The position numbers were made by a program, and so were the translations under genes. The notes beneath the pieces were generated by a model that was not told where the DNA came from, ran no database searches, and saw only the letters and a program-made list of their open reading frames with translations. Of a stretch of DNA of 64,000 nt, positions 30,363 through 58,053 are shown one piece after another (positions within the stretch are counted from its first letter, which is position 1; the number at the start of each line of letters is the position of its first letter). Source of the DNA: Dipylidium caninum (lineage: Eukaryota > Platyhelminthes > Cestoda > Cyclophyllidea > Dipylidiidae); the NCBI GenBank assembly GCA_017562135.1, contig QEYB01001046.1, positions 1,488,001 through 1,552,000 of the forward strand, read 5' to 3'.

Positions 30363-31680
30363 GTAGAAAACATTCGCGCACACGCACGCAGCCCACTGAT
30401 TGGTTGGTTGTTAGTTACGATAACGGCGCACTAGTTGGAGTTTAAAAAATCACAGAAATTTTACACTTTGTTTAAAACCCCCATATCGGCTCAGATATTT
30501 CGTTCGATATTTTTTAAAACAATTTAAAAACTGCATAAGGCTTTAGTTAGTATTATTTATGGGAAAGTCATCGAGTTTTCAAAATACTAGCCCACTAGCA
30601 AACAATTATCATACATTTCCTGCCTTAAATATTTTCAATAAATGAGAGGGTATGTATCCTTTCGGAAGGGGAAAGGTCCACCATTCATTCAAAGCCAGAC
30701 GAATGATAGTCGAACAAATCAAGATCCAAATGTCTATTCTCCCAAGAGGCCTTCTAGATAGTTGACTTTCTTTCTAATCGTCTATGAATCTTAATTGAAC
30801 AAAAGGTGAGACAACGATGCAATCTATGTTTTTCACTAAATATGAGTGTAACTCACCTATACATTTATAAAGGGATAGTTAGTACCCCTTACTAGCAACT
30901 ATACTAGCAGTTTAAAGATGTTTGAGTCCGTCCGTGATGTTCGCACCTTTAACCCGCTAAAAAAGCTGGTTCAACCTTCTCCCCTCTCAAGTACGAAGTT
31001 GCCATCCTTCACTGACCCTGGAGTACATTTACTAATCCCCCAGCTTAGCATGACCAAACCCTCTCCACTGCCACACTTTCAGGATTCCGAAACCCAGATT
31101 CGCAGCACATTCGTGACTGAGAGAGTCTCACCTCTGTATCTATTGTCGCTTTCCAACTCTTACCCAGCATGCTGTGTGGGACGGCGTTCGAAGTCAGTTA
31201 GGCTGGTTTACATGTAGGGTTTCATGTTAGTATTCCCCTCTCACGCTTGTTTAAAATTTAGCACTTATTACAGTACTGCTACTACTTCCAAGACTGAACG
31301 TTTAATTAGACACTTTTGGACACACCAACGAACGGTGGAAGGAAAGCAATGCGCTTACACGATCCTCTTTAAATTCGTAACAGCGAAACTAGTGTAATAA
31401 ATTGTAGGCTCTATCTTGAAGGAAATAAGTTGTTCAAACCATCTAGTAACAATTAATGCCGTACTCCGCCGTACCGCTGCAGTGTCCTGTTGCGTTATGC
31501 CTTCAACAATAACAGTTGTGCATCAAAGTTTCACATCTACCTTCCACTTAGCAATGGGGTTAAACCAAGTTTGCACATTAATGAAATATTTTTAATAACA
31601 ACAGACATAGTAACAATGGGTCGAAGGAGCATAAATTGCCATATGACTCTTTCTTAAGCCCTCATTGGAACTCCACCAAT
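30363..31680. other. intergenic gap between ASB and UBE3D
   Basis: AT-rich DNA holding the ASB upstream region and the UBE3D 3' end. It contains one plus-strand ORF, listed separately. A TTTATAAAG box lies at about 30865-30873. Confidence 0.5.
30918..31217 (+). CDS. possible small unrecognised ORF (99 aa)
   Basis: An ATG-to-stop frame that begins MFESVRDVRTFNPLKKL and is Ser/Pro-rich. A TATA-like TTTATAAAG lies about 45-50 bp upstream of the ATG. I recognise no family, and no flanking exon was found. A 99-codon frame is moderately unlikely by chance in AT-rich DNA, but there is no other support. Confidence 0.28.
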   Translation: MFESVRDVRTFNPLKKLVQPSPLSSTKLPSFTDPGVHLLIPQLSMTKPSPLPHFQDSETQIRSTFVTERVSPLYLLSLSNSYPACCVGRRSKSVRLVYM

Positions 31681-36610: not shown

Positions 36611-38077
36611 ATGGGCAATAGCCCGGGTTTTCCAGACGCTCAGTCTCCATATCCTGGGGTTCGTCGCTTATCTGACAAAGTCACTCCGAAAAATGATAAC
36701 TTCGAACTTCGGTGGCAGCGTTTTGTGGAATCCTTGGATGTCACTGACGAAAAAATGAAACTTATCGACCAGCTACCTTGCCCGCGGAAACTCGAGTTAG
36801 TTTTGAATTACGTAAGGCACGCATTTCCTTTAAACCGTTGATGTTAGGAACTCAACACGGTCAAGTTTTCCCCGTCTCACTGTGTTGAAAGTATTAAGAT
36901 GGCCCGCATATCGCAGATAGCAGTATTCCATATTTTTATTGTTTACAACATTTTAAGGCATCCAAACGGAAACAAGACCATGATGAGTTCCGAAAAATTT
37001 TTACTTCGGCAGAAATATCTTTACGTACAAATAAAATCGAGTAAGCATTCATCCATTTCTTTACTATTAAGATGGGTTTTGGAGTTCCTAGAGAATCACG
37101 GCTTAGATGCCATTGTCTCCTTTATGGGAGATTCCTTAAAATACCTTTCAAGGTGAGAACATTATCACACGTGATTTCTCAGAACGGACACTTTCCGGCG
37201 CACACAATTACATATGGATACGAGTCGGCGCAAAGCTTCCATGCCTTCGGAAGATTTCGCGCCCTCATCCCTTACTCGTCGTGATCTCTCAAGCCCAGCA
37301 AGAGCAAAACACACACGCGGCCCCAATGATAAACCACCTCCAACCCCAAACTTTTCATTGAGTCGGAATAAGTCTGCTTCACCCACTTTAAAAAACCAAA
37401 ATTTACCACTGTCAACTTCTTTAACTCTCGAAACATTGAAAGATTGCCTTCATTTATGCTTGAAGTGTTTTAAAACACTTCTCAACAATCAGGTTATTTA
37501 AATTTTCTGCTTGCAGACTACTTTTTTAAAAAATCTATTGGCACTTCTCTATTCGTTTCAGGATGGTTGCTCGAAAGCATTTGAAAACCCCGAAGTAATA
37601 GAAATAATTACTTTTTGCATTTTACACCCAAATTATGCGTAAGTGATGGTTCAAGATGCCTGTCTATTTTTAAAAGTGAACGTCCCATTTAGTTTCCATT
37701 TCGTCTAGGACAAAGGCTCTTGCACTGGACTTACTCTCGGCAATTTGCCTTATTGGTGGCGGTCATCCTAGGGTACTGAAAGCGTTCGAACACTTCCGTC
37801 GCACGATAGGGGAACATGCCTGTTTCGAGACCGTAATGAGTGATTTTCGAATTCACGAGGATCTGCCAATGGATCAATATAATTTGGAATATTCAGTCGG
37901 TTTTATTGAATTTTATTTATTTGTAATGATGGCATACCTATATCCTGTTTCCACTCTGGTTTCAAGGTTGCTTGTATTCAATTTATCAATATTGTGGTCC
38001 ACTCTCCTGAAAATATCAACCTTCGGGTGTACCTGCAGTACTCTTTTACCCTACTTGGCCTCGATGACTTTTTACGA
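36611..38077 (+). CDS. FMNL: FMNL GBD/FH3-encoding exons 1-8
   Basis: Eight exons separated by introns of only 36, 35, 31, 30, 69, 70 and 71 nt encode about 375 residues of the GTPase-binding and FH3 (armadillo-like) region. Matches to the FMNL family run in order: [59 protein letters not shown], and [20 protein letters not shown]. The variable loop in exon 5 is Ser/Pro/Arg-rich. This is the best-conserved part of the protein. Confidence 0.92.
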
Positions 38078-41000
38078 GTGAGTTTTCATTCATGTGTCCG
38101 ATTTGGAAAATCGCATCGGTGCTTCCATTTCTCATTTGAAATCGCTTGTATTTTCTCTCAAACAAATATATTAGCGTCCCAGTTTTATTATCTGTTTTGG
38201 AATCAATTAAAATGTCAGAAGACTCCATTTGATGAATGATCTAGTATACTACTTACCGTTCAAAGCAAGAGTTTTTCCTACTTCAGGCACTTCAAGCGAG
38301 ACCCGGTGATAAATTGAACCGACACGTTGAAGCTTACGTAAACAATATGGTCAATTGCTCCCTCCTTCTGGACGATGCCGAGGCCAAAGAGGCTGCTGTG
38401 GAGGAAGTTTCTCGTCTAGAGGTTGCTCTGGAGGCCTCTGAGAGTACAGCCAAACAACAAGCAGCCTCATTTAAGGTAAAGTATTTCCGCGTTATTCCTC
38501 CTCACCACTGTACTGTTTTCCGATTTGTTGTAAAACATTCGTTCCTAGTTTTCGCTTCCGACTTCAGTGTTAGTTCGTGATTGGATTTAGGTAAAGTAGT
38601 ATTCTTAATGGATAGGAGTTTATTCTGAATTCGGAGGCTATGAACTCATTAATGCTTTTTATTACCTCCAGCCTTATTCAGTACGGTTGCAAATTTTAAA
38701 GGATCTTAATATCTAACTTAAAATCCTATGTGTTGGTATACCATGGTCGGGGGCTACCCTCCTTTACTGCATGTACATGAAATGACACCTTACGGCTGCC
38801 TCTATGACAGTCCCAGGTTTCCTTTGGCAAGCAGAGACCAATGTGTGTGCAAGCTGCTTTTTCTAACGTGAGCTTACCGTGCTTGGCCTACCTTTAACAA
38901 AATGCCTTTTATGTATCATAAAAAGCTTTTTGAGATGATCAGAATCCTCGATTATGTTTCCCTTCCAATCGGTTTCCCCTCAGACCAAAGCGCTATTCCC
39001 ATCTTGTTCCAGGCATGCAAGTCGAATCATAATCAATATCATAGCATCGCGACAAGTGCTTTTTAATGAAGAACAAGTTTTCCTAATTCATTTCACTAAT
39101 TTTACTGTTTTATTTCATTAGACGTTTATGTTTGCCCATAATCTGGACATCCTTACTTTTGGAAATTTGTTGGTCGTACTGCTCGCACTTTAGTGCGATG
39201 TAGCCTTTGATGCAGGATTACGTCCATTTGTATTTTATTGTTTTTCGCCCACGTGTTTTGTCACGTGTTTGTGCTCTATTCATCAGCTTACAGGTGAAAG
39301 AGGATGGTAGAGACCATTTACTGTCCTAACTCTGTCTCGTTAACCAAAACGTAAGGTCTCGTGTTTGTGGATTAGCTTTGGATTTGCTGTTTTTTTTGAC
39401 GTCTTCTAGTGACTTAAGAACAAGTAAAAGAAACTCTTATCATCGTGCTAAGAGATTAACAAGCAAAGATTCGGAGGCTGTTTATTGGCACTATGAGTGT
39501 TTGTAAAAAATCAGGAGATTATGGGGCGTTTTTTAATTTCATTGTGAATACTAATTGTGTGAGCATAATTAAAAGTATGTTTAAAGTTGGTTAAATCGAG
39601 GGAATTTCAGTTATTACCACTGCTTACCGCGCATCATAGCATTTCTTGTAGCTAGATCAATTGACCGTTTCTCAAATGGGTCGTCCGAGATAACTCAAAT
39701 AGTTGTCACCTTAAGAAAAGCTATCACAGAACTTTGCTGCGACATGTATTCGAATTCATTGAGATTTTTTAGCTATGGATCACTTGTCAGCTGTCTTGGG
39801 CTGTCCAATTTAAATCGTATTTTTTTTGGGTCCTGTTAGCAAAGGGACATAGCTCTGTCGGAGTTGGTCGAATCCCTTCGCGGCAAGATCCGTGATATCA
39901 ACGTGGCAGCAGGGCAACAAGAGGCTGCGAACAAGCGCATTACAGAGCTGGAACAGTCTCTTGCAGCGGCGCACCGTCAGATTCAACGTTTGCAGGACGC
40001 CACCGTTAACTTCGATACCAATGCGTCAGCGGAAGCCACGGCGACCAATAGCCTGGGTCAGACACGCCCACCGCCCAACCCAAGGCAGAAAAAACCCTCT
40101 GTTTGCAATATGACTACATCCACGACTTTGCCTATGGGTTTCGAGTTCGCCGTTGCCGCTTCGGCGAATGAGGAAAGAGTGTCTACTGCAGAGGATGCGA
40201 GGAGTCCGAATGTCTCTCCACGTCCGTCTGGATCACGTCGCAAGTCCATGTCCCTCGAAGTGTTTTCCACAAGGGTTGGCAGTGGGAGTGATACTCTTTC
40301 CACATCTTCCCTCTCCTCCGTTACTGCATCGTCCCGCCAGTCCTCATCTGGGGTCAATTATGACACCTTCTCACGAAAATCGGGCTCCATTGCTGAGAGA
40401 CCCCGTCATGGACTCATTTCGTGCACTCTTATCTCCCAAGGTATACGCTCTCGTCCTCATCAGTTTAACTCACGAATGTCGTGTTGCTACCGGTAAAGGC
40501 ACGTAGCTGTTAATATAGCTTGGTATAGGGAAATTCTGCGACAGGAAAATGCGCATGAAAAATGTTTAAATATTGTGTATAGGCAATCAGGTTCCGTTGT
40601 TACTGCCACAGTAAATAACATGGAGGTGTTTCATAAGAACTGCATTGCTATCTTATCAGCTTGGTTCATCTGTAGCTCATTTCATTGCCGCCTGATAATG
40701 GGCCTTTTCTAGGTAGATGATGATGCCAGAATTGGTTTCTTTAATGATAATAAATTTGCCTAATACTCCAATGGAAATTGTGCTTCTTCACACCGCTCAA
40801 GTGAATATTTAAATCAACTAAAATGATCTATACGAAGTATAGACATTTGCACTTTCTCCTGGGACTTACATTCTGATATCTTAACGAAAATGGGTCGTTC
40901 AATTCTAATTCGTCAGTTATTTGAACGGCTTTTTATTTTCTTACCCTTGAGAAATAGCCTCTAGGTTTCTTCCCATTTAGTGCGGTTTGAGAGTAACTAC

Positions 41001-44000
41001 TTGTGGTGACCATTAAAAGGAATGCTCATACGCTTTTAGCGTTATTCTTTTTTTCTTTTTTTACAAGCTTTTAATCCGTCTTGACCCCACTTAGTTGTCA
41101 TGTACTCTTGGCACTTGATGTGTGATGTTTATCGTATAGCACATATTTAGTTCTTTCCACCCTAAAAGTGTGTGTATTTCTCAATTAAAGGTATAGTTAG
41201 TTTTACCCCGTGAAATATATAATTATCCTTGTCAGTAGAGTAAAAACAGACGTCTCATTTGCTGTCAGGGTTGAGAGGAGCGTCATTGAGACGTGTCCCT
41301 AATTTTTTCATCGCACGAAGTTTGTGTTTGCAATTTTTTGATTTTTGCTGATTTGCTGAGTTATTGGACAGTTTTGTCAATTCTCTTACATATTTTGTTA
41401 TTAACACTGCGTTAATTTGATCTAGGACAAAACTGCATTATTGTAAATTGTCTGCTGTTTAGTCACTTTCGGGTTGTATAGTAGTTGAAGGAGATGAATC
41501 TGGATAAGGGCCAGGGAGTCCGCGTGATAGTTTCATGACAATGATGTCGTACGTAATAAAATTGCTCCCCTAATTACCTGGCCAGCCGTCTTACTGATTC
41601 CATATGGATACTGACTCCAGTAAATCATTATCTTATTCGTCATTTTCCTTTCGCAGTAACAGACATGGCTCTGGCACGCAGGACTTTTGCCAACATCTCG
41701 ACAACCCTCAGTGTGTTGTTATCCCGGCTGGCCAGCACTTCGTGTCCCACCCCCCCTTGTCCCGCCCCCGTTGTCCCATTGCCTCGATGGCACACTTTTT
41801 TCACCGCTGGTGTCGGTGATGCTGCCGCTCCTCCTGCTCCTCGTCTCCGACTCTCCTGTGGTTGGGGTGGCGCCTCGACCATTTCCGTACAGCGGCTCCA
41901 CCAGTTGGCAGCTGTGCTGCCCGATCCCTGGGGCAAATACTTTGCCTGTGCCCATCGCGCCTTCAAACTGTGCGATGGCACCGACAACGTAGAGGAAGGG
42001 ACTGAGGGACAGAGCAGTGAAGGGGGAATTGAGCAAACTGTAGAACCAGGTTTCGAGGCCCAGAGGTAAGACGCTCGCCGGGCTTGCGCCCCAAATCTTT
42101 TTACTTGTTAGGATCGTTGTCATGTTTTTTTTTTAAGAAAGGTTTGATTTATTGTCTTACATTTCCGTTGATATCTTTCACTGTTAACCTTAAAATTTTC
42201 GACCATATTTCCCTTGGTTACTGATTTTTGCTAATTGGTTGTCTCATACATTGCTACTCCCTGGAATTGTGGAGGTTTTGCATCTGTCTGTCTGGTCAAT
42301 CGTCTTCATTATTTAAAGTTCTTAAGACCAGAATTTTTACTTATGTACTCGTGTTGGAATTGATTATCTTAAACTAATATTTCTGAAATCGGGATCGTTT
42401 CTCTCCATCTTCATGTTTTTTACCAAGCAACATTCTTTTTGTAATAGAATAGCCTAAATCATCTCTCTTGATTTCATTACTTCATTTTAATGTGCTGACT
42501 TCATAGTTGTTTCTCGACCGAAATTTGCCGGATCTCATTTTTACTGCCATTGGTGGCAAGGTCTGCGAGTTTTCGTTTTTCGCGTTTCCTATTTGTTATT
42601 TAATTTTGAAGCGTTAGTGATAATAGAAAGGTGTTTTCTGACATTTGCGTTTTCTGCAGATTCCTCCAATTTTTTCCACATTTTGCATTTCCTGTTTTCT
42701 TAAACGTGCTGAGACGTTTCTCCGGCAAGTTTACAAAGTTGGGCTATTTTTCCCGTTGGTATCCATCTATAACCTTGTCCGACGTTTCTGAGTGACCTGA
42801 CCATGACCACAATGTAGCCGTCAAGCTGTGAGTTGATTTAAATACTAATTTCCAACTTGTCGAGCAAAAACACAGCTCAAAGGACTCACTGGGGTTTACG
42901 TGTCTTACGATGTCTCCTTACTCGACGGTTTTTACAATTAGGGCCGTACACATTCCAGGTTCTAAGCTTATCTTATTGAGTATCATCTTCCAAGGCGTAT
43001 GGACACGGACCGATTTTTTCTTTGCGTATCATTTCATTTGTAATCGCTCAATTTGTCTATTTGAGTAGTCAATCGCTTCTCCTTGCCCTGCATATGAGGC
43101 AAGTAAAAGGGAACAAATACAAGACTAAATAGAATCGCTATTTGGCTGTTCCCTTCAGCAAGTCGGATAGCGATTAGGGTATCCTAAGTGTTTTTATTGT
43201 TAACATGAACATGCTGTGCACAATTGTTCTATCCTGTACGCTTAGTTCATCGCTTCCTAAAATTTAAACTTTTTCGATTGCGTAGTTCCAGTTAGACAGG
43301 AGCTATTTCCTTCAACATCGTTCGTTCGTTGGAAGTGGTGATGTTTATCATGTACTAGCAAGGATGGGTACGTGGTCGGTGTGTTCGACAGGAATATAGT
43401 GAACATCCATGGTCCATGGAGTGACTTTTCAAACGTATTTTCATGTAGACAGCATTGGAGAGGCTGTCTTCGAAGCTTATGAACTTTATCATTTATTTTT
43501 ACTAAACTTCTTTTCTTCCTGCGACAAGTCTAGCGTTATGATATGCAACAGGGTCAACACTTTCGGGAACCGCCTTGCAACGTTTTCTTTACGCCCCCAT
43601 TTTTGTACGCCTTTTTAAGCAACGTCTTTTCTCTTTGGTCGGTTATTCGATTTCCTTTTGTCTTCTAATGTTAAAGCCGATTAGCAATTCCCATAAATGT
43701 TCTTTTAAAACATAATAAAATATCATTTGAGTAGGGGAAACAATCTAAAATTTGATTTCATCTTATGATTAGATGCAAACAATTATGCCGACTTTTCAGA
43801 AGCAAAGGGCAACTTATTTGTCTCTTAAATTATATAACTAGTCGTTATGATTATTTCTATCGCGCTTTTGCCTTTTTGTTGTGGATCCATTTTTGTTCGT
43901 GTGTATATAGTCGCCTTCTTTTTTTTTTGGGACATCCGATGTACGGGGCTTATTCGCTTCGTCTTGGTAATATCTCTTGTTGAGTTCGCAAAAGACTGAT

Positions 44001-47000
44001 GCTGCTGTTAATTTCCTTGCTTTATAATCGGCGTGTTTTTGTGTAGAAAGTCAGCAGGTCCTGATCAAACTCATTGAATGGCAAAGTGAAAGGACATGTT
44101 TTGCGCCTAGTGATTCTTCTATTCGTCGCTCCTCCCAGGGCCGTAAGCATAGTATAAGGCCACTTCTGTCCACTTTACGAGCAGACAAGCCAATTGGATA
44201 GGTTATTTTACAGTTACCGCTTTTTCGGTTGTCACTAGCCTGTTGGACGAGTATCGAAGTTCTTTAGATGAGTTTACTGCGAAGATCGTAGTGCTATTGC
44301 TACCATCGCCTGTTGGGACAGACCGCGTTTCGGGTGCTTTTTACTTTCCCCGTCTTCTTGGCGAAGAAATTTTTTGGACGCCCCTTGGGTGTGGGTCTTT
44401 ATGGCAGAGGCGCGCGTTCACGCACGGAGGGATGAGGGATGAGGGATGGGGTAGGCACTAGAGGTGGTGGGCGGTAACGTGTATTAGTCACGTAGGTTGA
44501 CTAATTCCCTTTGCGTACGCCCTTGTATCCTCATTCCGTTTTACTCTGACGCTTTTGGCAGAGGATAAACCAATCGGACGGGCGGTTGCTAGTGTCTTCA
44601 GCCCGAACCCGAGACATCTGGCTGCCATCGATGTTCAAATATTTGTCCCTTTTTGACCACCATATTATACACGACCCGACATTTAGGCTTCATTGTTTAT
44701 TTAATACCTGTTAAATTGTGACGAATCTGCATTAAACAGTGCAATTATTTTTAAACTTTGGATTCAATGTATCAAAAGTAGGGTTTATTGTGGGGAAAAC
44801 GTATGGTCAGCCTTAGGTAAATAACTTTTGGCTAGATGCCTACCTTTAAAAGTTGAATATCTACTTGTCCCTAGCTCTAGCATGTAAGGTTTTCCGTTCG
44901 CTGCGTATACCACCACCAGGTAATATGTCCAATTCTGAATTCTATATTTGCTGATAGATGAGCGAATGTCTTTTCTTCTAACTCTCTCCGATAATTACCC
45001 GATGGTAGGTTTAGAGGTCACCTAGGCTGAACATGACAAATTCTGGTTAAGGTGAGTCCCAACTTCATCGTTAGATTTTTTTAGGTCAGAAGTTAAGCAT
45101 CAAGTTGAACTCTTGCATTTCTGTCTTCTGGATCCGCTTTTGTCATTCCACTGCATCGGTTTAGCAGTCTCCGTCATCGATACTGGACATTCCCTCCGTT
45201 TGCTAGTGTTTTAGTCACATAAGAACACGTTTAATGCTTTTGTCGGTTGCAGGCACTCATTGCTCGAATTTCATGTCCTTGATGGAGTGATAAAGTCAGT
45301 CCTATTCACTATTTATGATTTTTTTCCAAGTTATCACAGCTTGTTTTGACGGCAAATTATTTTCGATCCGTTTCTTTCCTACTAAGTGTCCTCTTCGTAT
45401 TTTGTCAGAATGTTGTCGACTATTCTTACTTTCTATTTTCAAAACCTTGTTTTTTTTACCAACTTTCCTTAGTATTTTTGCTCACTACCGTGAAACTTGA
45501 GAGCAGTGTTACACCTTTTTGTCGTATGACTTCTACTCTTTCGACGTGTACCTTTTAGATACGAGAAAATATTCCTTGAGACCAAGCTGTGCTTAGTTGT
45601 CTCCGCCTTCTTTAATCAGTTTTTGATCTGCTGTGCAAAGTTAAATTGTTCCGCTAAGCCATTCAGCGGTGGCCGTAATATGGTTGGGTTCTTCCGTTTG
45701 TTTCTTTCACCCCTTATAACATAGATAATGACTCCGAATGGGGTGTAATTGGTATTTAATCACTAATTTACCCTTGGTGAGCCCATATTGACCGCACATT
45801 CGCCATTTTGTGAAGACAAAATCTTATTGGTGTCCCTTTAAACTTCCCCTTATGGACAAACGCTTCTGTAATCCTATGAACTACGTAATCTTCCCTCCGA
45901 TTCTAACGACTGTAGTGTTTGTAAGTGGAATAATCTCATTATGAGCTTTTAAGCTTTTTCATCAAAGCCAAAAATAGTAAAAAATAGTTTTTATTTTAAT
46001 CCAGGTGAGAGTGACCTTGATTTATATTTTTCTATTTACTCCCTGTAAGACTTCTCGACCCATATGGTATCAGTGTTTGTTGCTCAGTCAACAATAATCT
46101 TTACTTATTTGACGGCGCGACCTTCCATCACTTGGTCTATTTACATTCCGACACACTTGTTTCGATCATTAACGAGTCGTCTAAAATAATTTCCTTGCTC
46201 CGTGGGACATTACAATTAAACTTGTGGCATTCGGTTTCCAGGCTTCTCCAATGGTTAGTTAGCTCTCGTCTCGTTACTTCCGATGCTATGAAATTGGAAG
46301 CTTCTCCAAGGCCTACCAGTGCGGAGGACGAGGTGGGCCAACGCGAGACCGTCGAGGCAGCAGCGGTGCTACCCCTCGTCACTGCCCTACTTTCCGTCAG
46401 TTTAAACCCCTTCGTGGCCACTCGCCTCCTCTCTCTACTCGAAGCCGTCACTGCCGTCGTTGGCAACAGCAGTAGTAGCAGCAGCAGCAGAAGTGGCAGT
46501 GGGTGGTGGCGCGAGTCTGGCGCACTTTCACGTCTCTTCGACGCGACAGAGGCTTACCTTCAAGTTCGTCTAACGGAACGTGACCTCTCGACCAGCCCTG
46601 TCTACCACCCCGACTCTTCTCCCGACTGGCCCTTGTTGCAGGCGCTTCTGCAAGTCAACCTCCTGCCTTTTGCATTTACCGCCAACTTGCAGCTGCTTAT
46701 TGAGGTAAGGCCGCTTGATCTCTTTGTTCACTTTGTTGTTTGAGTTTTATTTCCACTACTAAACCGCCTATTTAACTGGATAATGTTATTTCCGTTGTTT
46801 CGCCCATGTATCTGACGAAGTTAAGTTGTCTTTGTGAACTGGTTCAAAACTACGAGTGCTGTTTTTGAGATCCCACCTTGTGGGGCGAGAATCATTAAAA
46901 TATATGCCGATAGAATCCGCAAGTCGAGGTGACATGAGAAATAGCATGTCAGTTTGCTGGTGCGCTACGAGTGAAGCGTCTAAACTCGAGTCTAATCACT

Positions 47001-50000
47001 TCGAAAGCAATAATAAGTGTTCTGATGCAGTGAGCTTGAGGCACAAAGGTATGGGCAACGATTAACTGACCGTAGAATCCAATTAGAGGATAACTAATCA
47101 CAAAGTAGAACAACGGTGTTAGACACAAGCAAACTTACCGTCACGATTGGCAATTGTAATGATAATCAAGCCCATATTTAACCTTCTTCAGCCAAATTGA
47201 TCCGGGATCCTCGACTTTGTAGTAGGTTTACACACTAATTCACTTGATTTTATGAAGAATTGCGCTTGTTAACGCGTCGGTGCCAGTGTTTATGAATTCA
47301 AAGACCCGCATTGTCTACAGGTGTGCTTCCCCTCTCCTACCACCCTGACAATTGATGGTGCGCGTCAGCACACACACACACACACATTGACGTCCGTGCG
47401 GATATCGGCATGGGACTAGGTGTCCGGTGGTGTAGGAAGTTTCTCTTGTGCCAAAAGTACTCTTGGTGTTTTTATAGCGCCATCGTCTCCTTTTTGTCGT
47501 GAAACAAATTTGAACTAGGTGGAGCTTATTCTTTAATAATCGGAATACTTTGGTCCTATACGGCAATGGAGGGTGTGTTTGAGTGTTTTCCTCTTTTCAT
47601 TAAATTAAAATGAAGTAAAAAGCCTCCTAGTAATTTAAATAAATTCCCATTTTTGCATTGAATCACAATGTATGTGATTTTGGAGTTCTCCTTACAATGT
47701 AAATTTTTTTTGTAGATTTTATACAAAGTCAAATCATTTGCCCATCATTAAACGTGCCAAATTGAACGAGCGATGTAACGTACAGTTACATCTTGATTTT
47801 TCACTTCTGCCTTTTGTGTCTCGTAAGAACACGCATGACTGAGGTGGAGTGGCAGCCTCCGTCTCCATTTTTCGCCTTATATGTAGTCGGAGTAGCCATC
47901 GCCACACTAATAGCTTTTCCATAAACAGCCACTTTGGATCATGTTGAGGCCGGTAGTGACATGCGCGAAGGTGAAAGTGCACCACAGTGATCTAGAGACC
48001 TCACCTTACCGTGCTACAGCTTGGCGCTGCATGCTACTCAAATCATTCTTTACAAAGCAAACCTCACCAACAATCGTAATCTTCCTATCGCTATTTTGGA
48101 CACTAGGTTTGCACTCAAGTCGATGGCCGCTCACAGATATCAAATGTGATAGGGTGAAAGTGTTTTGCATTTGCTTCCTACCCGTAAAACTCTTATTTTT
48201 TTTTGGGATAATTATAGTAAATTTTCAGGCCTGGTATTGTGCTCCTCCATTTGCGCAGTCCATTTTTACGCCTTCCGCCTTTCCCCTTTTAGCAACTTGC
48301 ACTACTGTCCGCCTGCTGCAACTCAATAGTCGTCAGCAGTAAACTACCGACGGTGCTTCGCATTGCTGAGTCTCTGGCTGCTACATTCTTGGGAAAGCCA
48401 GATTTTCTCACTTTGGGGGTCAATGATCTTTCCTCTGTAAGTCCGTAAAATCCAATTACTTCCGGTTGTGATAGCTTAGAATCCTTCCATTTACCAGCCA
48501 GTCCTTCATAAGAAAATTTGGAGTATTTCGTCACCATTAATAATTTGTTGTTTAAAATCTGTCCTCCCTTTAGGAAACGCGTAGTTAACGTTTAAGGGTG
48601 AAGGTTAACCTGATGAAGGGATAAACTTGCTTTCACATCCACACCGGTTGCATGTTACATCCCACGCATTCCCCCTACTATTGGTCGTGTTATTTCTTTT
48701 CGCTCGTGGTTTTTTCTATTAATACTTCTACTTAATCATATTCACTCCTCGACCAGTATAGAGAATAATCTTAGAAGCGTAATATCATTTTGGCGGATCT
48801 TTGTTCTCCTCAGACCACATCTTAATATTTTTTTATGAATGTATTGTCAAAAAATTAGCACGAATTTCGAATTTTAAATGCGATAAGGCGCATTATTTCA
48901 TGTCACTCCTAATTGAAGAGTGGCTGTCTACGTCGTCGTTCCCATTCTTTAGCTTGCCGATTGGTGTTTATTGATGCGACGCAAGCCGAGTGACGTGGAA
49001 GTTGTCGCTAATAATGCGAGCAGAGACAGTCCCTGTGCGCCTCGATGCGGTTCCGAAAGTGTTTTGGGTGTCTCAGCCACAACCCACCGTCGCAAACCCT
49101 TCATGGAAGCATTATACAAGGCTGTCGAACTTGTTGCCCCTGAGGCGCTCGACTGGACCCACGACATCGTCTATCTTGATGCTGCTTCCAGAAGTGAGTT
49201 GAGCTTTTTACCACTAGATGAAAAGTGTTGACATGTCGTGGAGGCAGTATGGCGAAATAAAGCATGTTGCAGCCGTTACTGGATGAAACGGATCTGTCAG
49301 AACTCGCATTACATTTTGTCCAGATTGTTTGACAACCTTCCTTGGTGGTGTTTCCCTTTTCTGCTGGTTACACATCATTCATTTTTTCCGTAATTAAAGC
49401 GTTATTTGAGATGAAATCACCTAGAAATCTAAGTCTGGGGTAGAACTTTGCTTGGCCTCCAAGTGAATGTCTACAACGTGAATAACTTTCAAAACCCTTG
49501 GCAAAATTACTAAATTTAGCCATCCGTAGTCCGGCAGGTATCGATAAATTGTTTAAAACACTGACGGCCATCATTAACAAGTCTTTCGCACGCTAACTTG
49601 TCTTTTTTGCTCCATTAACGACATCTGGGATAGGTTTATAAGACCGGGAACAAGGTGATAGGTGGTTTTGACTCTTTCTTCCACTCCGAATCTTTTGTGA
49701 TTTGAATCCCTTTCCTTGCTATCCCTTTCGCGTAATACCTGCTCGATACGAACGTAACACTGATGGAGTCATGAAGTAGCGGGGGGTCCATAACGTCGAC
49801 AAGCTGCGTAACAGACGAATGACATCGAATCTAACTCACTGATTCATCCCCCCAGTTGTTGCATTCAGCAATTGAAGTGTCCGAAGGTGTGGTTGCCGTA
49901 ATTAACTGCCGTAGTGGTTACGCGGACTGTTTTGTTCCACGACTGAGCGTTTCGAAGAGGTCAACCGTACCACCAGGTCGCTCTTTCACGGCTCCTCCCC

Positions 50001-53000
50001 GCCCGCGTTGGGACGGCAGCCGGCAGGAGGATCAATTAGCAGTCCTCTGCTGTTGAGACCTGTTTCCACGGCTCTGCCGGGCGCTGTTAGCCCGGTGTTG
50101 TGAGTCATCTGCGCGTTGCAGTGCTCCCCCCACCCCCCCCCTACTCCCACTTTCCACTCCCGAAAATGCCCTTTTCCTCTGAGCGCGAGTGGCTTTATGG
50201 GCGATGTTGCCTCCTCTCTATTCCCTTCCCGCTTAAATAACTAGATTGTCGCCCGACTGCAGGCCCTATTGCATTTGGCAGTCTTACCAAAGTGTGTATT
50301 TGCGCGCATGTGTGTATACAAATACCTAATATTTAAATTCCGCCTGCTTGTCTTGTGTATTTGCTTTTGGGATGTTAACCTTCAACTGCTTCTCCTCCGT
50401 GTGCACCTTTGCTAGTTGAAAAAAAAGTGGAATGCTTCACGAGCGCCTTTGTTACTGTATAAGCCCCACTTTTAGCAGATTCTGTGCGAACTTTTCGTAT
50501 TTTTTATTTGTGGCTTTTTCAGGCCTTTATAATCCACGTTTTATTGGTCGTATTAATGGTTTGCCTCAAGCTTTTGCTATAAAAAAAAACTTGAACCGAC
50601 TTCCAAAATTTTACCTACTAATCCAGATATTGTATTGGACAACTTTTCCCTGCAACCATAATTTAATCACTCTTATGCTTTATCCACTTGAAGAAGTTCT
50701 TTAAGAGCAACATTTTTGTTTTTTTTTTTTACCATTTCTGATGCAAAACGACAGTGCTTCTCGTCTACCGATTTGACGCACACACACCTGAGATAGCACA
50801 CACGTGGTCAGGAAGTATGATAATCTGAATTGCCTGCTCTAATAACCGGTCTGCCCAAGTTGTGGAACTTCGCATCAGAAATGTATCTCCACCCGAACGT
50901 TTCCTCGTGTGGGCCATCCACCCGAGAACAGTTTCGGTTGAATAGTAACAAGATTCAAGCGATTTGATTGCCGACACTTTTGGGTTATCAGTAGAAGGTG
51001 GACTGTTATTGTTTATGGTTAGCAGCGCGTGTCGAAGTCGCTGGCCCGGTCACATCACCTAAGCTTTGTTTCCGCTTGTTTATTCATGCATTAGACGCAT
51101 ATGGAACACGAGTGGGGTAACCTTCTGCTTCTTGGTGGTATTTGTAGGGAGAATTAGTCTGGAATGCTCGACTTTCCCCCAGCCTTGAGGTTATTGGCGA
51201 AGCAAAGCTCGCTGATGGAATATGTCGGGGTTTTTCTTTGGTCGCCCACCCTTTTTTGTACTTGATCTGACTTTTTCAGTTTAGATCGCGTGGGTTACTG
51301 AGATATTACCTTGCCAACTAGCAGAATAGTTAGGCTCATTTTTCGGGTTAACTGCCTGGCGGTTAAATGTGTTTCACCTATGCACTTGACACTATCTCTG
51401 CCTAGGAATGAATGCTTGCTCCGAGACCCTTATATTGTTGCAATATATGATGATTAGTGAAAAAAAAGAATTAGCGAAAATCTTCGGACTTCAGGTTATT
51501 TATCTTAACTGTCCAATTTACCTCAGCCCCTATCATTCGCCCCTGGCTGTCTGGGAGACGAAACGTAAAAATAACCGCTATTTCTCCGCTTAGTCATTGT
51601 CATTGAAGTCGATTTATGGTCGTAGAAGCACTGTGCGGAAGAGCTCGGTCGTACGTATACACCTTGTTTCTGTCATTTGAATCTACCGCGTTACTGCCGG
51701 ACTGTATTTTCCTCTCTATCCCTATCTTGCGTCGCAACGGTAATATTTGACGCCGAACTCTATCACCCATACGGACGAGGTTAATCATTCGTCCTCGGGC
51801 GGATGGGCCCATTTACCTATTAACTTCCATAATAGGCTGTAGCATTTTTCTCTCACTACTTAGTTCTTTCTTACGAAAAAAAATAATTTCGCCGAAATGG
51901 CAGCACTAAATTTGTTTTCATTCCTCACTCTCCGCTTATGGTCTTAATGCCCTACAGCTCCCAGCCGCCTAATTCGCCCTTTTCAGTGTACTATAGACGT
52001 TGAAGGGTGGGAATTAATAGTAAGATTAGGACAATTTTTTATTGCCTGGCTGGGCCGATTTATCCACTTACCCACACAACAACTCTCCCCCAGTTTTGCC
52101 TTCGGACATGCGGGATCGGCTGCGCGATTTGGAGTATGCACTGTCGCTGCGTGACACTCTCTTCCCCGCGCCCGAGATCCCCGGACACCTGCAATATCTG
52201 GCGCCGGACGCATGGGCCAAGGTAACTGAGTTCAAGGCCTTGTTGACAGAAACGGAGATCCTCCTTGGCGCGGCTGCGCACTGTGTTTACTCTGCCACGG
52301 GACCACTTCGTCCGCCCACCTTCTCTGATCGCGACTTTGCCGCCGACATGGCTCTCTCGCCTGCTTTTACTCCTCTTTCAAGGCGAGTCATTCTACTTTT
52401 CAGTGGCATAATTTTATTATGGCATTGTTCATCATCGTTTACCAAACCTCGGGGTGAAGTTCCATTTCGTTCCCGCTTTCGGACTCGAGGGCAAATATCG
52501 CTCTGTGATATTATTCGCCGTCCGGTAGTATTTGGATGGGTAAGGGACACTAAAAGTCCGCTAGACTGAATAACTTTAGTGTTTGCCTTCATTCGCAGAA
52601 AGCCCCTTGAAGTGGATTCATTGGGCTGTCGGCATTATCTCTATCGTTAATAATTATTATTTTGCCGAATATCATCAAAATCGGAGGCGCGGAGATAAGC
52701 AAGGCAACAAGGTAGATGAATCTATACCATGTCCTTTTGTGACTATGGACACTTGGACTAAATTGATGAAATGTTGCAAGGTTATCATAAGTTGTCAATT
52801 GCAATTAGGTTGGCCGATTTGCGGAAGTCCACTTTTCATCGTTAAATGTCTAACATCCGGTGGCCCTGTTGTTGAACTGCCCAGGAGGGTTGCTGAGTAA
52901 GAACAGCATTAGGTTTCCTCCTCCCGCGACAGTTCGCCATCGCGTGCATCCAAGTGGAGGAGTGTCTCAGCCCCTTTAGAAATCGAGACGGTGTTGATGT

Positions 53001-55811
53001 TGTCGTTATACCCGAGATTCCATTGTCTGCAATACTGCTAGATGAACTCCTCATTTGTTTTTCCTCATTTCATCCTTCATCTGTTCGATCGTACGCTTAC
53101 CGTGGCGTGAAAATGGAGTAGAAGAGAGAGAGAAAGCAGTCATACGATGTAATTATTTTGCCTCGACGCTATATTCATTAAGATTCCCTAGGAAGCTACC
53201 AAGGTGGACTTGCACTTTTCTTTTTTCCCTCCCTCTCACAAGGCGAGGTGCCTAGTAGGTTATTCTCCTCTTTTTTTTGTAAATGAGAGTTTATCGGCGA
53301 AAGTGTATGCATTCACCGCAGTGTCTGGTAATAATGAATGAGATGAGCTCAAAAGGATGGCTCTTTAAACGGGCTACTTTTTCCTGTCAATATGCAGACG
53401 TCATCACTAGGGGTAGTGGACAGGGCCCTTCTGCGCCTATCATTTGGCGTTCTGTCACCTGCTCCCGTCTTATTATTTGTTCTGACAGATAATGAGATTG
53501 AATTTCCAGCTTCGACGTATACTGTTGAACGCTGTGAGAACAAATCCTTGCCTAATTTATTAAATTGAACTGTTGAACCGGAATTCCCCTTTACGTGAAT
53601 GGCAAGGTTTTTCGAGCTACCCTCTCAATGACATGCCGATTTGCATCTCCACTCGTTCTGACCGGAAGGCGTTCGGTGATGTTTGTGAGCTGTGGTCGTC
53701 TCTTCGCAACACCACTGCTCACTTGGCGCGTGTTCCAACTCACACGGGTGCCACTGTGACTCTCGCCGTGCGGCAATGTCCTCGCCTTGCCTGCGGAGCC
53801 CACTAATCACCCCTTCCGCGTCCATGTGCGCAAAATGGGCATTTTGTCACCTACGATGCATATGATTTTGTTTGACGTGGCGGCCAAACGTCAGCCATAT
53901 TTATTATTTTTCTTCTCCCTCTCCGAAATAATTCCTCGCTTTTTCTGTTCTAATAGCATTTTCTGGGGTTGTCAAAAATCCCGATCACCGCTTTTGCCAC
54001 CCATTTTGAGAGGCTGAACCACGTTCATTTGCCACTGTCTTAAACATTTGTACATTTATGCTATTTCATTTCTCCACTTAAAACACTCTTCCCTTTCTAT
54101 CGTCGTTTACGTTAACTCTTCGTGAGGATCTTTGGTGAGTAAAGTATCAGATTTGAAGTTGAGGCTGTTGTTTTGTTCTCCGCGGTTTCGACTTTTGCCG
54201 CAATAGTTTGCAGTTCTTCCGCTTTTGGCCGCTGCTCGGGCCCCGGGCTATTGTCTGGGGAAACATGACTATTCCGATCCTGATTATTTCGGTGTTCAGT
54301 AATAATTTGCAATTAGAATATCGCTTGTTGTTTACTCGGTAATGAGGGCTGATGCTCCACTGATACTCCGGTCCATTACGCAGACTCGTCATGGGGCTAT
54401 GAGCTTTCCCCTCTCTAACGTGTCGTCTAGCGGGACTTTAACACCCAACCTGCGAGTTCCCCTATGCAGTATGTAGATTGTTGCGAGGCATATAGGTTCA
54501 TAGAAGACTGTTATTGTTTGGTTAAATACAGACAAAAAAGCATCTTCTATTCTCGGCTAAGCTGTATTTTGCCAGAGACATCTAGCAAAACCCATTACCC
54601 CATTAATTTCTGTTCGGTTTAGAAGTGGTCAGTTGATGCCGAGAAAAGGGCGCGGAATCTGGCTAAAGCGTCGTCATGCAAAGTCTCCTCTACTTCCGCG
54701 CAGCGTCGCAACGCCGCCGCCGGTGACAGCGGAGCGCGCCGACACCGTTCCGGGAAGTCTGCCTCGCGCTCCGTCCAAAATGGTCACGTGAGTACCCACT
54801 CTTCCGCCCCGAGAGGGCAAGGAAGACGAGGACAGTCGACGCGTGTTTTCTTCTCCCTCTTCTCGCCCCTCTGTCTCGCTTTCGCTCAATGCTCCTCTTT
54901 CCTCGGCGTACTAAACCAAACCCCTTAATCTTATTCTTGCTAGGAAAAATGCACATGACGGTTTCTTGTGCACCAATATGGCCTTTGTTGTTCTGTCACT
55001 TTCAATATTACGCGTTTTTTTGACTAGTGCCTCAACTTGTACCCGATTGAGATCTCATGCACCACAGTCACGTCTTCCACTCATTACCGTGGTTCGTAAT
55101 GTATGTCGTCGGTAGTCCACTTCTCGATTAGTATTTTTGACGGCTGCTCATCTCTCCTCACCACTCGTTGTGAGAAATACTTGTCGACATTTGGTGATTT
55201 GCATTTACCCCACGTACAAAAGTGTGTCCTCGACGCAGCCATGACGGCCCTAGTCACTTCTCATCTTTTGACTTCATCGCACAAATTTTGCCTTGACCCT
55301 CTTATTTTTGATAATTTGGAGGAGCTTGCGTAAGGCAATAGCTTACCACCATTTCTTTACTGTGCTTCCTGCTTCCAGGAAGTGCACAACAAATTTTTGG
55401 TTATTTCATAGTCGCTTACGGTTGGGGAAATAGAGAGGTGCTAGCCATTTTCTTTCCCCTATCCGCCCTTTTCCATCCACCTTCTTCCTTAAGGGTGGTC
55501 TTCTTACCCGTATTCTCAGTGATTCGACTGCCTCAGCCCCGGCCTGCCTGGCTCCTTTATTGGAGATTGTGAAACACAAACCCTGATTTAGTTTCTCTTT
55601 GCCCTATCTAGGACAAAAACGATGGCGATCGTAAACGGAACGACACACGCCATCTGAACACCGTTGGCATTATGGACAATATTCTTGCCGGTAGGTGGTC
55701 TTGTCACTCCAGTGAATAGCTAGCTGCTCGCTGCACTTAGGCATCGTATCCTCCGTGCATGCGCTGAGTTTTTCAGTCCGCCGATGGTTGACGTTTAACC
55801 TTTTTGCTTGA
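36611..55811 (+). CDS. FMNL: formin-like protein (FMNL family) with divergent FH2
   Basis: FMNL formins are Rho-GTPase-regulated actin assembly factors held inactive by contact between the N-terminal GBD/FH3 and the C-terminal DAD. Exons: 36611-36811, 36848-36922, 36958-37040, 37072-37152, 37183-37492, 37562-37638, 37709-37895, 37967-38077, 38287-38475, 39840-40440, 41657-42065, 46242-46704, 48293-48436, 48953-49193, 52094-52386, 54623-54787, 55612-55690 and probably 55777-55811. All phases agree; about 1247 residues. The start MGNSPGFP resembles the MGN myristoylation start of FMNLs. GBD/FH3 matches include [34 protein letters not shown] and [20 protein letters not shown] coiled coil follows (residues about 400-490), then FH2 pieces from about residue 640 to 1155 and a DAD-like VGIMDNILA. 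No proline-rich FH1 is visible. The 52386 donor and the last exon are uncertain. Confidence 0.83.
38287..40440 (+). CDS. FMNL: FMNL coiled-coil and linker exons 9-10
   Basis: Exon 38287-38475 has [19 protein letters not shown] followed by heptad-like helix, matching the QAYLDNIFDVGALLEDTE region of FMNLs. Exon 39840-40440 continues the coiled coil ([20 protein letters not shown]) and then becomes a Ser/Thr-rich, probably disordered linker with basic phospho-type sites ([10 protein letters not shown]). The only proline clusters are [11 protein letters not shown] and similar short ones. Confidence 0.85.
40441..41656 (+). other. FMNL intron where FH1 and lasso would be expected
   Basis: A 1216-nt T-rich intron between the coiled-coil/linker exon and the first FH2-like exon. 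I looked for proline-rich or WxxL-coding sequence and saw none; no long ORF exists on the plus strand. Confidence 0.65.
41657..52386 (+). CDS. FMNL: FMNL divergent FH2-encoding exons 11-15
   Basis: Exons 41657-42065, 46242-46704, 48293-48436, 48953-49193 and 52094-52386. In-order similarity to FMNL FH2: [19 protein letters not shown] (family VTLLEANRAKNLAITLRK), [31 protein letters not shown] then [20 protein letters not shown] (family LNAIIAASxSIKSSQKLKxILEI), [20 protein letters not shown] (family DRKQTLLHYISNVVKEKY), and [19 protein letters not shown] then [11 protein letters not shown] (family [22 protein letters not shown]). Insertions include a poly-Ser stretch in exon 12 and about 30 residues in exon 14. 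The lasso and the GNYMN/GFKL signature are not found. The last donor is GGCGA|GTCATT; a GC donor four bases earlier is possible. Confidence 0.7.
42066..46241 (+). other. large FMNL intron, no other feature
   Basis: A 4176-nt, strongly T-rich intron with donor AGAG|GTAAGA and acceptor GGTTTCCAG. It holds only short chance ORFs on both strands. Confidence 0.6.
46705..55611 (+). other. remaining long FMNL introns
   Basis: Introns 46705-48292, 48437-48952, 49194-52093, 52387-54622 and 54788-55611. A (CA)9 run lies at 47369-47386. The intron 49194-52093 holds a GC-richer patch near 49850-50060 with an exon-like ORF that is out of phase. The intron 52387-54622 holds an open frame at 53573-53806 without usable splice sites. 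Nothing else is recognised. Confidence 0.55.
54623..55811 (+). CDS. FMNL: FMNL C-terminal tail and DAD-like exons 16-18
   Basis: Exon 54623-54787 ([20 protein letters not shown], then Arg/Ser-rich) takes the place of the basic helix after FH2. Exon 55612-55690 reads [28 protein letters not shown] aligns with the DAD core (G-A-I-E-D-I-I in FMNL, MDxLL in Dia). After the donor at GCCG|GTAGG a plausible terminal exon, 55777-55811 (acceptor TTTTTCAG), adds [11 protein letters not shown] and a stop, giving the basic cluster expected after a DAD core. Reading through the donor instead would end after GRWSCHSSE. Confidence 0.6.
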
Positions 55812-58053
55812 TGGCAGTGCGTCTCTCGTGACTTGAGGGTTGTGCGAGCTGGGTTTTCCCCCAAAAATAACCCGACTTAAGCCGATCTTCTTTTTCACAA
55901 AGGCTTCATTTAAATCAAATGAAGAGAACACTTAACCCACAAAAATGTAGAAATAGGCTTTATTACAGAAAGTGCCGATTTGTATAAAACGGGCACGCTT
56001 AAAATCCGTCCGATCTCTAAAATCTCACCATCCTGGGTTTTGTCTTGGGGACGCGGGAAAATCTTTTCGAGTCCTGCATGAGGTTGTCCTTTTCCAAACC
56101 ATAGGGTTGGACTCGGAGCCGCTGTACGCAGACGTCCACAAAGTGCCAACCAGGGGTCAGCAGCATGTGTCCGTCGCTGTCGCGTCCTCCCCACCCGCCT
56201 CTCCTTAACGCCGCGTGTACAGTCCCGGTGATCGCTCTTGTCGCCCCTTCCCCGCTCTGGCGCAGTGCCGTCCTCCTCTCCTCCCCCCCCCTTCTCCTCA
56301 TTTCATCTTCTCCCTTGTCATTTACCTTGGATTTTATTTACCGCCTCTTCTTCCGCGGGCTTTTCGAGCGGCTGCTAGCGATGCCTATGTGTTTCTCCAC
56401 CTTTCGACTTGCTGAACAATCAGCGTCCGATGCCATTGTACCTGTACATCTCCCGTCATTTAGACCTTACACCCACTTTTTGCAAAAATAACACTTGCAA
56501 ACGTAACACAGTGGCTCTCTTTTTATCTCTTATTAATATACGCTACTGTTGCTACCGTCTCGTGCCGTGCTACGCGCCCCCCACGGGGATGAGGAGGCGG
56601 CGGCAAACTGCGGTCTTTTCTCCCTCATTGTGAGCGACCTACTTATTTAAGTTAGTAGCACGCGACGGAATCAGTCGATGCACGGACGTGGCCGTGCCGC
56701 TCTCTTGCAATGCTCGTTTCGGCGTTTTCTGGCGGGCGGAGACGGGATGGACAACGAGGTGCTGCTCACGATTTACTGACTAACTGTAAATCCAAGTTTG
56801 CTTCGCGAATTCTGTTTATTGGGAGGGTGGTCGGTGTGCTTAGCCTTTCGGCCCTGTGGAGTTACTCACTGGCCCAAGTTGTTTTGCGGATTTTAGCTTC
56901 GAGAAAAAGGGTCATTATCAACGCTAGCTGCTCAAGTAGGTGATTTGTCAGTTGGACTAGTCTCAAATCCGCGATTCGCGGTTTATCCACCTAATATTGT
57001 CAAGTTACCCACAGAGGGGGACAACTTGACGACCCTGGGCACGGGAGATAGGTTACGGAGAACTTAGTGCGCCCTGGAAATTAAACTGATGGATGTTTTG
57101 CCGCAACTGTCCGCGGTGCCGCCGTTTGCTCTCACAGGAACAGTGAGGAGCTAGACGCAGAGGCGTCGTTGTCCTACCAATTGTCGACATGATGCTCACT
57201 TTGTTTCCTTGAGTAGCATTTCAGACTTCAAATGTCTAGTTTGCTAATCAATGGTCGGATTCTACCAAATTTGCACGCTCCTTACTGGCAAAGGAGAAAT
57301 GGGAGAGCTCGTGGGTGGCTGAAGAGACGCGCCGCTCGCGTTCTTTGCTGAGTGTCCCAACGCCTACCGATGCCGCTCTTGCATGTTAGACGGGGTCCAG
57401 AACTTCTCACCTCGTCTGACAGGTAACAGAGTGAAGTGGGTCCCAGCCACTAGCTGCCTGCTTGGCTGTTCACCGCGTTTCCGTCTTCGAGGCGTGACAA
57501 TGCAGGTGCGAGTGGCCTCTCGGGCTGTCTGTTTGCCGCCACCGACGCAAGATCGTCGCCACCGTCGAAATGACTACGAATTAGGTAGGGGGCAGAAGCA
57601 CTCACTCCGAGTGTGCCACAGCACAGTGTGGAGAACTCTCGACTTTCGCCGCCTCGTACCTCGTCTTTTATTGTTGCTTTTGAGTCACCGAACCTGTTCA
57701 CAGACGGGGTCGTGTGTCAGTGGCAGTTTGGCGGGAGACTGAGTCGAGGTGCCATGTGGGCGCCCGTCGCACACATCGGAGTGGCAATTAAACGGAGACC
57801 GAGTTAACCAGAGTTGCATTTACGAGGTGGATTTCGAAAGTCTTCATCAAATCGCGTATAAGTGAAAAGGTGGTACAAATAAAAGGGACCAGAGGCTAAA
57901 AATGACAACCCTTTCACCAGTCTGCCAGAATCGGGTTCACAACAGCGAGGGGAGTAGAAAGAGCAGCGCGCTGGCAGCAAAAGAGGTGAGGTACGCGGAA
58001 TGCAACCGAATGGAATGGAATGGAAGGAGAGGCCGCGCGCAGCCCCATTGGGC
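55812..58053. other. convergent intergenic region between FMNL and SLC25A1
   Basis: 2.2 kb between the two stop codons, holding both 3' ends. Composition changes from AT-rich to GC-rich near 56 kb. ORFs of up to 119 codons here look like chance frames in GC-rich DNA. Confidence 0.5.
57667..57672 (-). terminator. possible poly(A) signal of SLC25A1
   Basis: AATAAA on the minus strand, about 380 nt downstream of the SLC25A1 stop codon. It is a hexamer match only; no cleavage site evidence. Confidence 0.3.

Follow-up and report, generated by a model that had tools for sequence, protein, structure and literature searches.

The window analysed here is a stretch of 64,000 nucleotides of the Dipylidium caninum genome (assembly GCA_017562135.1, contig QEYB01001046.1, positions 1,488,001 to 1,552,000; 106 Mb in 920 contigs), and the gene in question lies on its forward strand between 36611 and 56208. 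We interpret this gene as a pseudo-FMNL, one of two FMNL-subtype formins that parasitic flatworms carry; it has undergone domain losses, has kept the parts of the formin switch and may act as an actin-inactive regulator of its intact paralogue; we put the probability of this reading at about 0.68. The loss of actin assembly taken by itself is highly probable judging from the sequence comparisons. An original prediction, made from the DNA of this window, had proposed a formin that kept Rho-GTPase signalling or scaffolding while losing actin nucleation. The comparative evidence favours that proposal: conservation extends over GBD, DID and coiled coil, no FH1 remains, the aligned orthologues lack both the FH2 signature and the knob Ile, and the same genome has an intact FMNL. 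Added here are that paralogue, an FH2 fold retained according to structure models, a DAD, a myristoylation motif, and the occurrence of the gene in both tapeworms and flukes.

The most conserved FH2 stretch was said to be replaced by AATFLGKPDFLTLGVNDLSS, and this was read correctly. The exon at 48293-48436 fills the intron slot of the paralogue's GNYMN exon; its phases are identical and it is shorter by two codons. The claimed disappearance of GN(Y/F)xN also stands. GNYMN became AATFL in the window protein, as read directly, and the motif is gone from the aligned relatives with the same pattern, hereafter the eroded copies. In its place cyclophyllideans have AATFL or ASTLL, Spirometra has ISGLL and schistosomatids have TNMLL, TNVLL or MKMLL (motif kept in 0/10 rows, 10 of the 13 supplied having passed the pattern); all eight intact copies aligned have GNY(M/V/I)N. 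A regular expression for GN[YF]xN found nothing over 24 whole eroded models, and the looser GNxxN matched one of 23, that of Rodentolepis nana, where the match falls in a variable insert and does not represent the signature. Schistosomatid eroded copies retain GFQL and mostly SLD; tapeworm copies retain neither. The knob column lacks Ile in all 13 eroded copies aligned: Opisthorchis and all five tapeworms, the window protein included, have Trp, six schistosomatid sequences have Asp and one has Asn. Actin polymerisation by Bni1 and FHOD3 is reported to depend critically on this Ile (I1431 and I705, respectively; PMC10192571). As to FH1, no proline run longer than three occurs in any of 23 eroded models, and 17 of 18 intact FMNLs have a run of at least five. 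The second aromatic of the lasso has a weak candidate only in Opisthorchis (SIF), none having been noticed in tapeworms.

Profile searches gave a corresponding picture. The hidden Markov model (HMM) of Pfam FH2 (PF02181, gathering cut-off 34.8 bits) did not match the window protein, including the spliced region, even at E <= 10. Three of 18 eroded family members were matched (best E 3.5e-4, P0013 19.8 bits), and all five intact flatworm paralogues exceeded the cut-off with 256-275 bits. Precomputed Pfam FH2 annotation was present on the intact FMNLs in the search list and on none of the relatives with the same pattern. A canonical FH2 exon overlooked by the original prediction was sought with an unfiltered FH2 HMM search of 2061 six-frame open reading frames (at least 20 residues) in the window. 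None was found; the best scores were 6.0 bits (E 0.51, minus strand) and then 3.1 bits in exon 14, while four exons of the intact paralogue locus scored 57-122 bits. With an FMNL FH2 HMM the eroded copies scored 37-38 bits (Paragonimus P0025 and Fasciola P0026), 19.9 bits (Opisthorchis), 18-19 bits (Spirometra and Schistocephalus), 16-30 bits (schistosomatids, some with high composition bias) and 7-9 bits (P0001-P0003). These scores do not form a clean gradient, since P. kellicotti reached 11.8 bits and two truncated Paragonimus models fell below 3 bits.

The N-terminal autoinhibitory region had been described as well conserved, and in the window protein the Pfam families Drf_GBD, with 67.7 bits, and Drf_FH3, with 77.8 bits, were both over their cut-offs. 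Its DID is 96% identical to that of T. crassiceps and 57-58% identical to those of flukes. The closest solved N-terminal relatives in PDB are FMNL1 and FMNL2, and the closest solved FH2 is that of FMNL3 (4eah). Among the FMNL2 residues that contact Cdc42, H222 is conserved and R261 and E360 are not; we draw no conclusion from this because the R261 position is also Gln in the intact flatworm copies P0024, P0091 and P0028. The DAD is encoded by the exon at 55612-55690 and the start of exon 18. A regular expression found the motif in 16 of 23 relatives, and a variant occurs in P0025; the models of the remaining relatives, as well as P0088, end upstream of the DAD tail. Eroded and intact copies have this motif in common (GDGMMDEILAGL..EPLQAEVH versus DGIMDDILAGL..QPLRADVH). 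The FH2 ancestry of the eroded copy is apparent from introns A-D, which lie at the same places as those of the canonical paralogue, and AlphaFold models of two relatives retain the FH2 fold; the eroded copies have probably kept the overall fold, as far as these models go. Compared with FMNL, the eroded knob/linker region contains insertions. The structure-match lists for the two models consisted mostly of DID/armadillo chains, one domain dominating.

Tapeworm-fluke identities were calculated for the eroded copy from the window protein against Opisthorchis and S. japonicum, and for the intact copy from Mesocestoides against three flukes. The FH2 core was 29% identical in the eroded copy versus 67-70% in the intact copy, and the post 19-24% versus 49-51%, while the DID was 57-58% versus 63-65%. 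The coiled coil showed the reverse, 38-44% versus 20-25%, with boundaries set by rough landmarks. Within tapeworms, the FH2-like region of the window protein is close to that of T. crassiceps (core 84%, post 80%), and since the core is 79-84% identical among cyclophyllideans we conclude that it is under constraint rather than free to vary. This conservation, together with the fold in two models, the GFQL and SLD of schistosomatids and a knob column that also varies among intact flatworm copies, could point to a fast-evolved yet working formin whose FH2 fold dimerises and handles actin with substituted residues, FH1 being dispensable. Such a formin is unlikely in view of the substituted knob in every copy aligned, the lost GNYMN, the missing FH1 and the low core identity between tapeworms and flukes, set against that of the DID. 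The constraint within tapeworms and the better conserved coiled coil would also suit a neofunctionalised scaffold, in which the FH2 fold is re-used to bind non-formin partners (microtubules, nuclear or membrane partners) and the paralogue is not regulated. Nematode FOZI-1, whose FMNL-type FH2 has diverged and works in a different setting, is a precedent (PMC5047451). We consider such a scaffold improbable, though less so than a working formin, because DID and DAD are kept and the DAD motif is common with the paralogue, which is easiest explained if formin-type switching still matters.

The proposed pseudo-FMNL is encoded by 18 exons, all on the forward strand:

Exon 1, 36611..36811 (+): start ATG, MGN... 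(PROSITE-like N-myristoylation motif), beginning of GBD; 90% identity to P0001 (T. crassiceps orthologue) residues 1-93
Exon 2, 36848..36922 (+): GBD
Exon 3, 36958..37040 (+): GBD, EISLRTN motif
Exon 4, 37072..37152 (+): GBD, WVLEFLENHGLDAIV / WVLEFLENHGLDAIVSFMGDSLKYLS; in the R. nana model, not in the T. crassiceps or E. multilocularis protein models
Exon 5, 37183..37492 (+): variable loop, beginning of DID
Exon 6, 37562..37638 (+): DID
Exon 7, 37709..37895 (+): DID/FH3
Exon 8, 37967..38077 (+): DID/FH3
Exon 9, 38287..38475 (+): end of FH3, beginning of coiled coil
Exon 10, 39840..40440 (+): coiled coil and Ser-rich linker, without polyproline FH1
Exon 11, 41657..42065 (+): FH1/lasso-linker position; PLPRW resembles the FMNL lasso P...W
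Intron A, 42066..46241 (+): phase 2, lies within an Arg codon, likewise in the intact paralogue (NRQR|CMGI)
Exon 12, 46242..46704 (+): knob and linker to post; Trp at the knob Ile position (R|LLQW)
Intron B, 46705..48292 (+): phase 0, same position as in the paralogue
Exon 13, 48293..48436 (+): equivalent of the GNYMN/GFKL exon, 48 codons versus 50 in the paralogue; GNYMN to AATFL
Intron C, 48437..48952 (+): phase 0, same position as in the paralogue
Exon 14, 48953..49193 (+): FH2 post
Intron D, 49194..52093 (+): phase 1, same position as in the paralogue (AASR|I versus AAAR|V)
Exon 15, 52094..52382 (+): end of FH2-like domain; GC-AG donor by orthology; one-base frame discontinuity near 52350
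Exon 16, 54623..54787 (+): basic tail
Exon 17, 55612..55690 (+): DAD, RHLNTVGIMDNILAG
Exon 18, 56105..56208 (+): LDSEPLYADVHK..., then stop

Exons 1-15 were rebuilt from the sequence (36611-52386) and gave 1155 stop-free residues, with all 14 introns GT-AG and in phase. The five junctions proposed originally (40440/41657, 42065/46242, 46704/48293, 48436/48953 and 49193/52094) are among these, and P0001 spans each of them: its residues 412-612, 613-735, 741-893, 894-943, 942-1021 and 1022-1108 cover the junction exons almost continuously at 59-86% identity. The gene does not end at 52386 as had been supposed. Its FH2-like part ends at about 52382, and exons 16-18, placed with tapeworm orthologues, include the DAD and reach a stop at 56208. 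The absence of exon 4 from two protein models reflects either alternative splicing or an annotation gap. Between 52330 and 52382 the frame moves by one base relative to aligned tapeworm orthologues (...FAADM | SLACFYSSFK), shortly ahead of the exon end and its GC-AG donor. An assembly error is likelier than a real lesion because the downstream exons are conserved; the sequence was left as assembled. The discontinuity is what speaks for a decaying pseudogene or a gene-model artefact, an explanation that we regard as very improbable and rejected because the relatives are conserved. The 14 regular junctions, the orthologous proteins in 23 named species and the conserved DAD and other sequence past the break all stand against it.

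In the protein search the closest relatives are from cyclophyllidean tapeworms. T. crassiceps and Echinococcus multilocularis proteins of the same pattern are 77% identical over 99% of the query, and that of R. nana 70% over 99%; further examples come from Spirometra, Schistocephalus, Schistosoma spp., Trichobilharzia, Opisthorchis, Paragonimus, Fasciola and others. A second, alignment-based search returned 26 matches, of which 24 belonged to the eroded family (P0088 being new) and two were intact FMNLs. The family now comprises proteins of nine tapeworm and fourteen fluke species, 23 named species in all. Free-living flatworms and Monogenea were not among the protein matches; only the 7990-7991 candidates with the most shared words were scored, so their absence is not shown. 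Searching from an intact Mesocestoides FMNL identified intact copies in Schistosoma mansoni, S. japonicum, Trichobilharzia regenti, Paragonimus and Clonorchis. Both copies occur together in five cases: Mesocestoides corti, S. mansoni, S. japonicum, Paragonimus westermani and the genome of the window, in which the intact paralogue lies elsewhere:

Intact FMNL paralogue, contig C828:40007-57222 (G000): FH2 introns shared with the window gene

In a DID/coiled-coil tree (37 rows, 457 columns, DIAPH outgroup, no MWHF sequences) the eroded copies formed a clade (100/100), the intact flatworm copies formed another (99/98), and the two were sisters (100/100). Together they sit among the FMNLs on a long stem (1.42) that leaves an unresolved fork. 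Assignment to the FMNL rather than the MWHF subtype is suggested by the DAD, by 4eah as the best FH2 and by the names of retrieved sequences. The duplication of the FMNL gene is older than the tapeworm-fluke split. As tapeworms and flukes have the same loss, the window gene appears to be a regulatory copy of long standing rather than one that is dying out. We found no description of the eroded family in the literature searched, which excluded subscription papers and preprints; public records already name single members, for example as formin-like protein 2.

An N-terminal myristoylation motif, scored with a PROSITE-like pattern, was present in the window protein, in P0008 and in each of the 13 eroded models that include the start of the GBD; the remaining ten of the 24 models start further downstream. 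Nine intact flatworm models, from five organisms, include the GBD start, and none of them has the motif; of 151 other proteins retrieved, a set that takes in truncated models and some non-FMNLs, 98 have it. In the intact FMNL of the window's genome, the first matching exon starts with MSTQD..., without an MG motif, one codon after an in-frame stop; an upstream exon may precede it. Since eroded copies have the motif and intact copies do not, ancestral features appear to have been shared out between the copies, the myristoylation motif to one and the FH1-FH2 engine to the other. FMNL2 is anchored at membranes by myristoylation and a basic patch, and Cdc42 is proposed to open it by displacing the DAD; FMNL1 and FMNL2 dimerise via the coiled coil (PMC4432619).

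After the FMNL duplication, one copy stayed canonical, with FH1 and an FH2 containing GNYMN, and the other lost FH1, the FH2 signature and the knob residues while keeping GBD, DID, coiled coil, DAD, N-myristoylation motif and, according to the models, the FH2 fold. As the most likely mechanism, the eroded protein would be held at membranes by its myristoyl group, closed by DID-DAD contact and opened by a Rho-family GTPase, and it would neither nucleate nor elongate actin. Once opened, its free DID, its coiled coil or both could bind partners, the likeliest being the canonical paralogue through its DAD. The paralogue is the simplest partner because the intact copy has the same DAD motif, and the eroded copy, by engaging it, would locate or restrain the paralogue, as Mwh antagonises Dia in flies. 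That the paralogue is the main target is nevertheless tentative, resting as it does on motif likeness and analogy, and we would sooner doubt it than assume it. Likewise less likely than not is a split of one formin in two, in which an FH1-FH2 engine without an anchor would be positioned or silenced, through trans DID-DAD contacts or hetero-oligomers, by an FH2-fold pseudo-formin that retained the anchor, GTPase switch, coiled coil and DAD and would serve as its Rho-gated regulatory subunit at membranes.

Several points weigh against the pseudo-FMNL as a regulator of its paralogue. Actin inactivity and DID-DAD cross-binding are predictions from sequence, and the trans role depends on motif similarity and on the comparison with Mwh. 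The Dia fragment used in the work on Mwh had no DD, and no structural basis was found for the interaction (PMC4346269). At the knob site intact tapeworm copies have Ile and intact fluke copies Val; this substitution is conservative and takes a little away from the knob argument. The original prediction had also counted loss of the GFKL Lys as evidence. Its loss is weak evidence by itself because this residue varies among intact formins, seven of the eight FMNLs aligned having GFRL. Mean pLDDT (predicted local distance difference test) of the AlphaFold models was 56 and 57.5, moderate in the FH2 helices and below 50 in the DAD stretch of both; with confidence low overall, surface predictions from them are weak. 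Finally, the one-base break in the window copy lies upstream of the DAD exons and puts them, along with the end of the FH2-like domain, into a different frame.

Other features were observed in the window. G+C is about 0.54-0.62 over positions 1-22000, falls to about 0.39 at 22 kb, and rises again past 56 kb, a sharp compositional boundary within one contig. The remaining coding features recorded were:

29490-30410 (-): ankyrin-repeat protein, Pfam Ank_2 92.4 bits
61588-62049 (-): mitochondrial carrier exon, Pfam Mito_carr 54.8 bits
23184-23552 (-): exon weakly matched by Pfam Cadherin, 17 bits, under cut-off, which we take to resemble a calsyntenin ectodomain

Few formins without actin assembly are known (Mwh and FOZI-1). 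The intact and disarmed pair provides natural intermediates, from the GFQL-SLD of schistosomes to none of it in tapeworms, that bear on which FH2 residues matter; it lets one ask what the autoinhibitory half does alone, and the division of features between the copies permits a direct test of formin subfunctionalisation. Pruyne (2016) considered FMNL and MWHF lost in Platyhelminthes on the basis of FH2 searches that included Clonorchis and Echinococcus (PMC5047451); our results disagree with the published FMNL loss, because an intact and a disarmed FMNL are both present. The schistosome formin in print is SmDia, an intronless diaphanous formin with FH1-FH2 (PMC2734992), which is a different gene from the eroded family. 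Elsewhere in the genome of the window, a locus (L001, G000:C296:4464822-4465991) contains a full FH2 within a single open frame of 1079 codons; it is consistent with an intronless diaphanous formin like SmDia, to which it is likened by description only (PMC2734992).

Compared with FMNL proteins (FMNL1/2/3, FRL), the eroded copy has the same order of GBD, DID, coiled coil, FH2 fold and DAD, the MGN start and the FH2 intron positions of a canonical FMNL, but it lacks FH1, the FH2 signature, the knob Ile and most FH2 identity and has knob/linker insertions. The canonical fluke and tapeworm FMNLs (e.g. P0024, P0091 and P0092) form its sister clade and have the same DAD motif and, in the comparison within the window's genome, the same FH2 introns; unlike the eroded copy, they have a polyproline FH1, a GNY(M/V/I)N FH2 and a start without the myristoylation motif. 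Mwh of arthropods and nematodes resembles the eroded copy in keeping a formin N-terminal half without FH2 activity and in antagonising an active formin. Its GBD-FH3 fragment binds a CC-FH1-FH2 fragment of Dia directly, and Mwh antagonises dia; co-immunoprecipitation of the full proteins was weak (PMC4346269). Mwh differs in that DID-DD trees place it in the MWHF subtype and in that it has lost the whole formin C-terminus (PMC5047451), whereas the flatworm copy keeps the FH2 fold and the DAD. FOZI-1 of chromadorean nematodes is likewise of the FMNL subtype, with a highly divergent FH2 alongside a canonical FMNL (PMC5047451). FOZI-1 has zinc fingers, families of which were not found in the Pfam scan of the window protein, and has no GBD or DID, whereas the flatworm copy conserves the opposite half.

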